Shown: positions 32,641 through 36,893 of the stretch, in pieces
Layout: every line of letters begins with the position of its first letter
How positions within the stretch are numbered: the stretch's first letter is position 1
Notes under the pieces: generated by a model
The model's database searches: none
Told to the model about the DNA's origin: nothing
The model's input: the letters and a program-made list of their open reading frames with translations, nothing else
Translations under genes and position numbers: made by a program
Assembly: GCA_017999915.1 (NCBI GenBank)
Contig: JAGNKX010000001.1
Span: forward strand, 248,001 to 312,000
Source: Spirochaetota bacterium
GTDB lineage: Bacteria > Spirochaetota > UBA4802 > UBA5550
Direction: 5' to 3'
DNA: 64,000 bases

Positions 32641-33621
32641 CTACTTCTTTTTGCTGAAGTATTCCTGGAAAAGCTCGCGGTTCATGTTCAGGAGGCGGTC
32701 CCGTATCTGGGTTATGTTCTCGAAGTTGTAGCTCTGGATGCTGTAGTAGTCCAGGAGCCAGAGGTACTTGGTGATGAGGCGGGGCATTATGTTCGATGCC
32801 TCGACCTGGCCCTTGTTCATCTTCTGAAAGGTGAGCTCCAGGTTGTAGATGTCCTTCTGTATCCCTTCCACCTGGTGGGCGCTCAGGTTGCGCTTCACGT
32901 AAAACACGTCGTGGATAAAGCCGTAAATAGGGATCCACTCCGCGATATCCTTGAAATCGGCCCGCTCCTTTTTGACGATCTCCACTAGCTCCGTGATCGG
33001 CTTCGCCCTGAGCACGGTCAGGTCGATCTCGGCCGGGTCGATGAAGAAAGCCTCGCGGAAGGAGAGAAGGCTCTTTGTCGTGTCCCCTACGTGGAAATAG
33101 GCCTCTCCCAGGATCGCCATGAGCCTCGCGTTGCTCTTGTAGGAGCCCTTGGCGTACTCCAGCGTCTCGATGGCGTGCTTGTATTCCTCCAGCCGCAGAA
33201 AGCATTCTCCCAGGTTCAGGAGGAACTGGAAATTGCTGGACGTGTCCTGCTGCTCCCTGAAGGCAAACTTGTAATTGTCGGCTGCCTTGAAAAAAATATA
33301 CCTCATTGCGAACTTGAATGCCGACGAGGAGACCATGTTCTTGCTCTCCGCGTACTCGTTGAACACCTCCCACTGTCCCATCAGGTACTCGGCGGTGTCC
33401 TTCCCCTCTTCAAGGGTCTTCATCTCCTTTTCACGGTTGTTCCAGAATTTCGCAACCCGGTACGCTTCGATGAGGCCGGGATAATCAGCGTCGATGTCCA
33501 TCAGCTCGTCGACTTTGGCGACGGCGGCCGCGAATTCTCCCTTTTCGAGATGCTGATACACTTCGTTGATTCCGTTCAGGATCGGGTCATCGGAAAATGT
33601 TAGTTGGCCGTTCTTGTCCAT
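32641..33621 (-). CDS. TPR-like helical-repeat protein
   Basis: 326 residues, soluble. Tetratricopeptide-like units are visible: GEFAAAVAKVDELMDIDADYPG, LLNLGECFLRLEEYKHAIETL and LMAILGEAYFHVGDTTKSLLSF. The C-terminus (about 240-326) is aromatic-rich and unlike TPR. ATG 33621 lies six bases after the stop of the YhaN-like ATPase gene, so it is the third gene of that operon and probably a partner or adaptor of the ATPase and phosphoesterase. Confidence 0.75.
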   Translation of the reverse strand: MDKNGQLTFSDDPILNGINEVYQHLEKGEFAAAVAKVDELMDIDADYPGLIEAYRVAKFWNNREKEMKTLEEGKDTAEYLMGQWEVFNEYAESKNMVSSSAFKFAMRYIFFKAADNYKFAFREQQDTSSNFQFLLNLGECFLRLEEYKHAIETLEYAKGSYKSNARLMAILGEAYFHVGDTTKSLLSFREAFFIDPAEIDLTVLRAKPITELVEIVKKERADFKDIAEWIPIYGFIHDVFYVKRNLSAHQVEGIQKDIYNLELTFQKMNKGQVEASNIMPRLITKYLWLLDYYSIQSYNFENITQIRDRLLNMNRELFQEYFSKKK

Positions 33622-33627
33622 CGTCTC

Positions 33628-35784
33628 TTATAGCTCTACGAAGTTTCCCCAGTTCCGCTTGTCGCTCTGGTGGGTGAAGATGATCACCTGCCGCCTGTTC
33701 GAAATATAGGACACCAGATCCCTGAAGCGATTGCATCGATCATCATCCATAAACTGGAACGGTTCGTCAATCAATAATGGGAGCGCCGTATCCTCGTTTA
33801 TGAGAAAATCGGAGAGGGTGCATTTGATGGACAGCAGGAGCGCGTGGATGACCGGCGGCGTCATTTCCTCGATCATCTTGTTTTCGGTTATCATCTGAAG
33901 CACGGCGGCGTCGTCGATCTTGGTTATGTACTGGTTCCCGGTCAGGTGGTTGAACTTTTCCAGGGTACCGTCCAGCAGCTTCCGCAGCTGCTTTTCCTCG
34001 CTGCGCTCGACGGCCCGGGTCAGCATGCGCGTAATGAATTCCATCGAGTTGCGGTTGACCTTCCATTTCTTCAGCGTGCGGTCAATGGCGTTCTTTTCCT
34101 CGATGAGGGCGTTCATGGCGCCGCTGTTACCCGATGCCTGGAGAAATTCGCTGTCGATCTGCTGTAAAATCCTCTCCTTGGTCTCTATCTTTTCTTTTAT
34201 GATGGCCAGCTCCGTGCCGATATTCCGGATCAGATCCTCGATCTTGCTTGTTTCGTTCTCGATATCGTCGACGATATTCAGGGTATCGATGCTGTTGTGA
34301 ATCTCGTTTTTGATGATCTCCTCTTCCCGTTTCAGTTCGTCCAGCTTTTTCTGTATCTTGACCATGTACTCTTCTTCCTTTAAAGAGCTCTTGATCATCG
34401 CCAGGTCTTTTTTCCGCTCCGTGTAATTGACGTAATCTTCGAAATACTGGAGAAGAAGCTCGTAAATTTCAGTGAGCTTGTAGTCTTCCAGCAAGACCTT
34501 GCTCTTCTCCATGAGGACCGTGATCCGTTCCTTGAACTGCTTTTTTTCCTCTTCCAGCTTTTCCAATTCCTTGTCGTTCCTGAAAACCAGCATGCTTATG
34601 GCGATGGCGGCATTGGCTATCACGGCAGCTCCGAGAATAGCGATCAGCAGATAGAGATCCTTGGCAGGGTTCCCGCCGTTCTTTATCAGGATGCCCGCCA
34701 GTGCCGAGAGGGCAACGGCGGAAACGACGACGGCCGTCTTCTTGAGCCTCCTGCGCTTGCGTTCTTTTCTAAAGAAGAAATTATCGATCTTTTCATTGAG
34801 ATTCCTGACATCGTTGAACACTTCCTGGAGACGGTCAAGGTTCGTGCTGTCGTTTATGTCGATCCCGCTGAACTGCGGGAACATGGCGTCAAGCTCGGTC
34901 TTCATTTCTGTCATTGATTCAATCTTTTGCTGCTCCTTCTGGATCTCATCCTTGATGCCCTCGAATTCATCCTTGAGCTCCTCGACCTTGTGCAGGTTCT
35001 CGATGATCTTGTTCAGTATCTCCCTCTGGCTGTTGAGTGAATTGAGTGAATTATTCAGCTCATCCACCTCGCTCTGTATCGTGTTTTTCTCCCTCCGCAG
35101 CTTGTCATGGCGCGAACCGCTTATGTCCATGATCTGTATCTTCTTCTCAAGGTCCCGCTTGGCGTCCTCCAGGCGTGAAACCTCCGGGGGAAGACCCGGG
35201 TTGGCGCGGATGCCGCTCTCGAAGGTATTGATCATATTGAGATAATGATTGTAAAAACCGGTGTTTTCATCAAGGATGATCCGTTTCAACACTGATAGAT
35301 CGATGGTGCTGTCTTTGGCGATATCGGATGATGCCGGCATGAAGGATGAATTGACAAAGGCGGCGCAGTCGATCCTGTTCAGGAACTGCCGCAACATCCT
35401 GCTTTCGAAATCATCATCGCTGAAGCTCTGATTTTTGTTTCCCGCGGTGCCGTCCGACTTCACCTCGGAATAGATTATCTTCTCCGCGTTGTTGTGGATA
35501 AACTGTATCCGGTAACTCTTGTCGCTGGTCGTGCAGATGCGGTAGTACCCGTTGTCCGTGAGCGAAAAAAAGAGGTCCAGATACAGGGAGTTCCATACGT
35601 CATCCCCCAGGAACTTGCGATCCGTGAACTTGCCCCACATCACATCGATCATGCCGCGCGCCAGGAGACTCTTACCCGAGCCGTTCCTGCCGTAGACGAT
35701 GTTCAACCGGTCGCTGAAATTGATCACGCGGTTATCGAAGAGCCCGTGTTTGTACACCATGCATTTTATATACTGCACAGCCAT
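33628..35784 (-). CDS. Rad50/YhaN-like coiled-coil ATPase with membrane segments
   Basis: 718 residues. Walker A GRNGSGKS is at 32-39, and Walker B LLIDEP lies near 670-675, followed by a VIIFTHQ switch histidine. Between them are long Glu/Lys-rich coiled coils (about 215-345 and 400-600). Two hydrophobic segments (about 349-366 and 377-400) sit where Rad50 would have its hinge. That layout matches the Bacillus YhaN type rather than SbcC; a clear LSGGE signature is not seen. The start overlaps the phosphoesterase gene by 19 bp, the same pairing as SbcCD, Mre11-Rad50 and YhaO-YhaN. Probably an inner-membrane-anchored DNA-processing ATPase. Confidence 0.82.
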   Translation of the reverse strand: MAVQYIKCMVYKHGLFDNRVINFSDRLNIVYGRNGSGKSLLARGMIDVMWGKFTDRKFLGDDVWNSLYLDLFFSLTDNGYYRICTTSDKSYRIQFIHNNAEKIIYSEVKSDGTAGNKNQSFSDDDFESRMLRQFLNRIDCAAFVNSSFMPASSDIAKDSTIDLSVLKRIILDENTGFYNHYLNMINTFESGIRANPGLPPEVSRLEDAKRDLEKKIQIMDISGSRHDKLRREKNTIQSEVDELNNSLNSLNSQREILNKIIENLHKVEELKDEFEGIKDEIQKEQQKIESMTEMKTELDAMFPQFSGIDINDSTNLDRLQEVFNDVRNLNEKIDNFFFRKERKRRRLKKTAVVVSAVALSALAGILIKNGGNPAKDLYLLIAILGAAVIANAAIAISMLVFRNDKELEKLEEEKKQFKERITVLMEKSKVLLEDYKLTEIYELLLQYFEDYVNYTERKKDLAMIKSSLKEEEYMVKIQKKLDELKREEEIIKNEIHNSIDTLNIVDDIENETSKIEDLIRNIGTELAIIKEKIETKERILQQIDSEFLQASGNSGAMNALIEEKNAIDRTLKKWKVNRNSMEFITRMLTRAVERSEEKQLRKLLDGTLEKFNHLTGNQYITKIDDAAVLQMITENKMIEEMTPPVIHALLLSIKCTLSDFLINEDTALPLLIDEPFQFMDDDRCNRFRDLVSYISNRRQVIIFTHQSDKRNWGNFVEL

Positions 35785-36893
35785 TCCTCCAGGTTTGTAA
35801 ACCCGTCCCGGGTAATTTTGTTCAGTGATGCGGCGAGATCGCTTTTATCTATATCGTGGGGCAGGCCGCCCTGGTCAATCTGCTCCTTGATTATTTTATA
35901 GAATTCACCGCGCAGGGAATTCTCATACTGGTACTCCTCGATGAGGGAGTCAATGGTGGGCTCGCTCTTGTCAACAAGGTCCAGCTTGAAAAACTCATTT
36001 TTGTATTTCTGGAGCTCATACTGGCGGAGGACAAAATCGCGCTTCCCGGTCATTATGATCTGCTGTATCGTTTTCTTTGACTTGTTGTTTTCCAGCAGCT
36101 CCTTGATGGGCCCCATGGTCAACAGGTCGGAGCACGCCACGAGGTTCCGGTACAGCTTCATGGAATTCACGGTGAGACGCTTTATCTGGTAGAGCCTGTT
36201 TTCCTTTATGACGATGGAAATGACATAGCGGTCGCCCATCTCGTCGAACGACGTCGCCTCCGGTGTGCCGGGGCATACTCCGATGATCCGGTCCATGATC
36301 TTGAACATCTTGAAGCTGTGGCAGAAGCCGAAGGCGTAGAAGTCAAGCCCCAGGGCCTTGATGTCGTTTTTCTGAAGGCGGTATACCAGGAAATCGTTCT
36401 TTTCGTTGTCAAAATCAAAATCGACATGGAACAGGCCTATATGGAATCCCTCGTCGGAGATCTTTTTTATCTTCGAGATATCGTACCCCATGGTTCCGGA
36501 CAGGCCGTACACGTACACCTTCTGTCCGTTCTTCATATACAGGTAGGGAGCCGGGGCCGTGGTGCTCGAAAAAAGGCACGAGGCGTTGAAATCAAGGACG
36601 AAGGGCATGACCGTGTCCTTGTTGTTCAGCTCGCCCCTTCCCGGGGTGTACACGATTTCGGTCCCCGCGCTCCGGAGGCCCCTGAACTCGTTCTTGATCA
36701 GGTCGATGGTGTCGTTCCCGACGGTCCCGCCGTCGATGAGATCCCCGCCGATGAGGAACAGGTCGTGGCCCCGCGCTATGGCCGCAATGCGCTTGAATGT
36801 GTTCACCCGGGCGTAATCGGGAATATGGATCTCATTGTTCCTGATCCCCAGGTGAATATCCGACATGAAAAGAATCTTTATTTCGCTATCCAT
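35766..36893 (-). CDS. Mre11/SbcD-like metallophosphoesterase with degenerate metal site
   Basis: 375 residues from ATG 36893 (GGAA upstream); ATG 36929 is an alternative adding 12 residues. The first metal motifs are intact (FMSDIHLG and IGGDLID), but the usual GNHD/E appears as GRGE and the GHxH motif as GFCH, so several metal ligands are lost. The C-terminal 120 residues are helical and charged, like the Rad50-binding region of Mre11. With the coupled ATPase it forms an Mre11-Rad50-like pair; nuclease activity is doubtful on sequence. Confidence 0.78.
   Translation of the reverse strand: MDSEIKILFMSDIHLGIRNNEIHIPDYARVNTFKRIAAIARGHDLFLIGGDLIDGGTVGNDTIDLIKNEFRGLRSAGTEIVYTPGRGELNNKDTVMPFVLDFNASCLFSSTTAPAPYLYMKNGQKVYVYGLSGTMGYDISKIKKISDEGFHIGLFHVDFDFDNEKNDFLVYRLQKNDIKALGLDFYAFGFCHSFKMFKIMDRIIGVCPGTPEATSFDEMGDRYVISIVIKENRLYQIKRLTVNSMKLYRNLVACSDLLTMGPIKELLENNKSKKTIQQIIMTGKRDFVLRQYELQKYKNEFFKLDLVDKSEPTIDSLIEEYQYENSLRGEFYKIIKEQIDQGGLPHDIDKSDLAASLNKITRDGFTNLEEWLCSI

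Follow-up and report, generated by a model that had tools for sequence, protein, structure and literature searches.

Mre11–Rad50 has been studied as a nuclease, and the locus described here raises the question of what such a complex does once its catalytic motifs have decayed. Three tightly packed genes occupy positions 32641–36893 on the minus strand of the window, the whole 64-kb stretch of DNA under analysis, with open reading frames exactly where the first-pass annotation had placed them. A Mre11-type phosphoesterase gene is followed by a Rad50-type ATPase gene and a gene for a TPR protein (Table 1). The first two genes overlap by 19 nt, and a gap of 6 nt separates the ATPase gene from the TPR gene, a spacing that makes co-translation of the trio likely. 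A promoter and terminator scan at the trio gave a signal no higher than that of shuffled sequences. One flank carries a divergent PASTA-domain protein gene followed by rpe-, rpsP-, rimM- and trmD-like genes, and the other an acetyl-CoA synthetase-like gene, these "-like" labels being putative and read off the translations; the neighbouring genes of the trio are housekeeping genes. In several families an ~880-aa gene lies 3′ of the TPR gene; its candidacy as a long GreA was ruled out, the gene being that of valyl-tRNA synthetase (valS).

Table 1. Genes, motifs and predicted membrane segments of the trio, with positions in the window
Feature	Position	Strand	Detail
Mre11/SbcD/YhaO-fold calcineurin-like phosphoesterase, degenerate catalysis	35766..36893	-	375 aa from ATG at 36893
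Motif I, D12-x-H14, kept	36852..36860	-	42/42 and 38/42 homologues
Motif II, G50-D51, kept	36732..36746	-	42/42 and 38/42 homologues
Motif III, GRGE replacing GNHD	36630..36641	-	metal-2 Asn 0/42, catalytic His 2/42
Motif V, GFCH replacing GHxH	36318..36329	-	first His 20/42, last His (H192) 40/42
Rad50/YhaN-like coiled-coil ABC ATPase	33628..35784	-	718 aa; Rad50 profile match, fold match
Walker A, GRNGSGKS, residues 32-39	35668..35691	-	34/41 homologues; absent in 7-genome clade
Transmembrane helix 1, residues about 349-367	34684..34740	-	hydropathy 2.08
Transmembrane helix 2, residues about 379-397	34594..34650	-	hydropathy 2.42
ABC-signature position, MTPPVIH; LSCGAEE in intact relatives	33844..33864	-	alignment with intact homologues and SbcC
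Walker B region, PLLIDEPF	33757..33780	-	homologue alignment
TPR protein, Spirochaetota-wide single-copy family	32641..33621	-	326 aa; TPR matches

The phosphoesterase adopts a predicted Mre11 fold from which the nuclease motifs have been lost. Its Pfam Metallophos match is weak (2e-6), and a family profile built from 27 homologues matches Mre11 structures in the PDB at 1.2e-11 over residues 4–270. Moreover, the AF2 model (pLDDT 87) finds only Mre11 or SbcD structures among the best 50 fold matches listed. The change of GNHD to GRGE and of GHxH to GFCH, which had been read from the window protein beforehand, is correct for that protein, and across its homologues the loss at GNH is nearly general. 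Specifically, the Asn of GNH is present in none of the 42 homologues and the catalytic His in two, with no conserved replacement residue at the position of the latter; the first His of GHxH, lost in the window protein, is kept by 20 of the 42. Judged by motif, the protein is not a normal nuclease. As a control, GNH and GHxH are kept in 12 other Mre11-like proteins from genomes of the same order, as well as in two pairs from spirochaete family f27, in Listeria YhaO and in E. coli SbcD. By alignment, consistent loss of the nuclease motif across the order is a distinctive feature of the trio. The proposed separation from SbcCD is likewise borne out: the SbcD family model scores 20.9 bits on the phosphoesterase, under its cut-off of 77.65, and GNHD, GHxH, LSGG and CxxC are all missing.

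The ATPase matches Rad50 in its general architecture and carries a hydrophobic hairpin at its apex. Its family profile (22 sequences) matches Rad50 in the PDB at 3.8e-18, and AAA_27 scores 22.4 bits in the whole-genome scan (cut-off 22) and 20.2 in the protein scan. The best fold match of the AF2 model is the Mre11–Rad50–Nbs1 complex; the model has a pTM of 0.52, coiled coils depress such whole-chain scores, and the head and general architecture alone are meaningful. Two helices, called as membrane helices by hydropathy and joined by a short loop, interrupt the coiled coil at the position of the Rad50 hinge, as the first-pass annotation had noted, and are present in every one of the 41 full-length homologues. 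Positively charged residues lie just N-terminal of the first helix. A zinc-hook CxxC occurs nowhere in the 718 residues, the apex being formed by the hairpin. The description of the ATPase as membrane-embedded stands insofar as the hairpin is present, but the feature is not specific to the trio; it is inherited, since Listeria YhaN has two hydrophobic helices at the same place, and a trio-specific hairpin is ruled out both by this protein (SbcE) and by intact hairpin pairs elsewhere in the phylum.

The catalytic motifs of the ATPase have decayed to different extents. By alignment, the ABC signature is consistently lost across the order, and Walker A is lost in one clade: seven genomes, grouped with 100/100 support in the TPR tree, lack Walker A together with most of Walker B. 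Because Walker A and B remain in 34 of 41 homologues, ATP binding probably persists in those proteins. The clade devoid of both motifs still has the hairpin, the TPR protein and purifying selection.

Conservation of the set was followed in 46 genomes of the spirochaete order to which the window belongs. Each gene is found in 42 of them, with constant gene order and orientation; all three are adjacent in 41, two loci (G204 and G213) being interrupted by contig ends, and all three are missing from 3 of the 46. Most of these genomes are metagenome assemblies, so that absences are uncertain and the three genomes without a trio may be incomplete. The TPR gene is present in every intact locus, confirming its conservation with the pair, and its product shows the strongest conservation in the trio: within the order, identity to the window protein is 44–90%, compared with 21–80% (ATPase) and 25–81% (phosphoesterase). 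The TPR tree matches the families of the order with 7 changes, the minimum, and by following taxonomy it indicates vertical inheritance; conservation of the trio across the order excludes chance. On these sequence comparisons, the trio is a vertically inherited, single-copy core operon, near-universal in the order. Values of dN/dS are well below 1 for all three genes; this holds too for the clade devoid of Walker A and for family f4, whose phosphoesterases show the greatest decay. For example, the pair G186/G192, from the clade without Walker A and B, gives 0.14 for the phosphoesterase, 0.17 for the ATPase and 0.015 for the TPR gene.

Architecture that is kept, catalysis that is lost and selection that remains purifying together form the pattern expected of a scaffold. 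The reading we favour, with a probability of about 0.5, is that the trio encodes a membrane-tethered, catalytically decayed Mre11–Rad50 complex, derived from YhaO–YhaN and used as a scaffold rather than as a nuclease. Its directly legible elements are the Mre11- and Rad50-type proteins, the apical hairpin, the loss of nuclease motif and ABC signature, order-wide conservation together with the TPR protein, and purifying selection. In the proposed arrangement, the ATPase would form a dimer whose heads lie in the cytoplasm and whose apex sits in the inner membrane, and a phosphoesterase dimer would hold these heads together, perhaps binding DNA or a single metal ion but not cutting. A client-binding role would fall to the TPR protein, recruited by the scaffold.

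The wider family of the TPR protein offers a hint as to the clients. It is assigned from weak Pfam TPR matches, the best of which (6e-6) falls short of the curated cut-off, and from designed TPR structures matched by the family profile. A profile search finds a near full-length, single-copy homologue in 246 of 296 Spirochaetota genomes, at E 1e-15 or better. At 18 of 20 loci sampled outside the order (L122–L141), the homologue is encoded within one gene of either a long TPR–GreA protein or its relative; these neighbours share homology with the first 730 aa of the ~900-aa TPR–GreA protein, and 14 of the 18 match the Gre-domain profile. Those at L124 and L141 match the N-terminal region of GreA and lack a Gre domain. 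In the window genome, a 900-aa GreA is encoded on a different contig, away from the TPR gene. A paralogous relationship between the TPR protein and the GreA N-terminal region is unsupported (hhalign probability 1.8%). Literature searches returned nothing on the function of the Spirochaetota TPR protein, and nothing useful on YhaN membrane topology, BB0133/TP0018 or spirochaete GreA. Because TPR homologues elsewhere in the phylum adjoin the large TPR–GreA, the most likely clients would be chromosome- or transcription-associated proteins, held at the membrane by the scaffold. Gene neighbourhood outside the order is the basis of this step, and we put forward only tentatively the fuller proposal that a pseudo-enzyme Mre11–Rad50 holds the TPR protein, and thereby the transcription or chromosome machinery, at the inner membrane.

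Comparison with other Mre11–Rad50 pairs places the trio in a known lineage. Outside the order, the ATPase profile matches just two genomes, both of family f27, whose pairs (L151:3-3249 and L152:4276-7623, one of them cut at its start) are the closest relatives found; beyond the phylum, the searches covered control genomes, one plasmid collection and one genome-contig scan. The phosphoesterase and ATPase profiles score 1e-41 and 1e-46 on f27, and 1e-19 and 6e-18 on Listeria YhaO and YhaN. E. coli SbcD is matched at 2e-11, and E. coli SbcC is unmatched by the ATPase profile. This successive fall in score assigns the trio to the YhaO–YhaN (SbcF–SbcE) branch. Families f5 and f6 (L164, L166, L175 and L176) carry a second pair besides the trio, with a GNH-type phosphoesterase and hydrophobic mid-helices in the ATPase; since this intact pair coexists with the trio, the latter is a separate paralogue and not just a decayed copy of a sole pair. 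A further Mre11–Rad50 type occurs at L158, L161, L162, L163, L165 and L174, where an ATPase of ~800–851 aa has a CPxC hook and an FSGGE signature, and the phosphoesterase beside it reads GNHS or GNHC together with GHWH.

Searches of the window genome (G000) yielded no SbcD above the model cut-off and no SbcC. SMC, RecN and an OLD-type protein account for the other strong AAA_23 matches examined there; a further AAA_23 match, of 369 aa, has the size of RecF. The same genome encodes a 664-aa OLD-type-looking ATPase (L180:3510-5504) near an ankyrin-repeat protein. By these searches, the degenerate trio is the sole recognised Mre11/Rad50-type pair in the window genome, which lends some weight to the view that it remains a functional, membrane-tethered complex of SbcEF/SbcCD type for DNA-end sensing or repair, binding ends in an ATP-dependent manner and leaving cutting to another nuclease or to one-metal chemistry. 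The related SbcEF has been implicated in double-strand break repair (PMC6452273), and yhaON(M) is part of the Bacillus pumilus SOS set (PMC3896406). Moreover, classical SbcCD is commoner in the two clades whose trio is most decayed (8/11 versus 2/32 genomes; Fisher p 4e-5 with genomes as the unit, although only two clades are involved), as if SbcCD had relaxed the constraint. Against this view, the GNH Asn and the catalytic His are missing nearly throughout, the ABC signature is replaced, and several genomes also have an intact hairpin pair or another Mre11–Rad50 pair; a DNA-end function is less likely than the scaffold. The DNA-handling or sensing role proposed by the first-pass annotation is possible. 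Replacement of SbcCD by the trio everywhere is ruled out, many genomes of the order carrying another Mre11–Rad50 pair; the weaker form, in which decay of the trio is greatest in genomes with classical SbcCD, is a lead.

The phosphoesterase itself permits a different alternative, centred on its first metal site. The earlier statement that metal ligands are lost holds for the Asn of site 2 and for the catalytic His, but the four site-1 ligands are mostly kept: D12 in 42, H14 in 38, D51 in 38 and H192 in 40 of the 42 homologues, residues which we equate, from established Mre11 structures, with the site-1 ligands of Mre11. Site 1 thus appears mostly kept and site 2 damaged, with its Asn gone everywhere, and because the metal-1 ligands mostly persist, the protein might carry out single-metal chemistry or bind nucleotides. 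E88 and H151 are also conserved, each in at least 38 of 42. Taken further, these six residues could form the active site of a phosphodiesterase with altered chemistry that relies on metal site 1 and the new residues E88 and H151 and whose substrate would be a nucleotide or a nucleic acid. Such an enzyme is improbable, however, since family f4 has lost D51, and in some members H14 or H192, with the gene still under selection, and no conserved substitute occupies the catalytic His position.

A defence role, suggested by the first-pass annotation and conceivable in a Lamassu-like form with invading DNA sensed by the Rad50-like protein and the TPR protein serving as effector or adaptor, is very improbable: the PADLOC LmuB model does match the window ATPase at 2e-14 and 19/22 homologues, and the ATPase fold matches include structures of Lamassu and JetABC, but E. 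coli SbcC scores higher with LmuB models (1.5e-24 and 5.6e-24), making the match generic to Rad50-like proteins, no PADLOC match exists for the phosphoesterase or TPR gene, no LmuA lies beside them, and a single-copy, vertically inherited core set with housekeeping neighbours such as valS argues the other way. The SbcC control and the distribution data rule out defence as the best reading, and the trio would instead serve a housekeeping function.

Should the scaffold reading be true, an architecture held under purifying selection after motif loss would mean that the Mre11–Rad50 scaffold itself has a testable function. The trio also brings to attention a TPR protein found almost throughout Spirochaetota, its gene often adjoining that of a large TPR–GreA. 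What sets the trio apart is the order-wide loss of nuclease motif and ABC signature, the absence of Walker A from one clade and the fixed TPR partner; the hairpin was already known from YhaN.

Among characterised systems, YhaO–YhaN gives the best-scoring relatives and shares with the trio, in the Listeria genome record, adjacent Mre11-like and AAA_27/Rad50-like genes, the two hydrophobic helices of YhaN lying mid-coiled-coil at residues about 431 and 449. Listeria YhaO nevertheless keeps GNHD and GHIH, whereas the trio phosphoesterase lacks intact nuclease motifs, and YhaN is longer (907 aa versus 718 aa). The gene after Listeria yhaON, unlike that of the trio, is not a TPR gene and is presumably the YhaM nuclease of a yhaONM cluster. 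The intact pairs of f27 and of f5 and f6 have the same two-gene arrangement and one or two hydrophobic helices midway along the ATPase, but their phosphoesterases keep GNH and GHxH. Specifically, the f27 pair reads GNHD and GHFH, its ATPase has the same membrane hairpin and an LSCG signature that the trio lacks, and neither f27 pair has a TPR gene alongside. SbcC–SbcD and Rad50–Mre11 share the folds of both subunits, with nuclease motifs and LSGG signature intact in SbcCD and absent from the trio. Lamassu LmuB is likewise a Rad50-like coiled-coil ATPase, in some cases with ATP hydrolysis thought to be low or absent (PMC10586767), but Lamassu has LmuA and LmuC, and the trio has neither.
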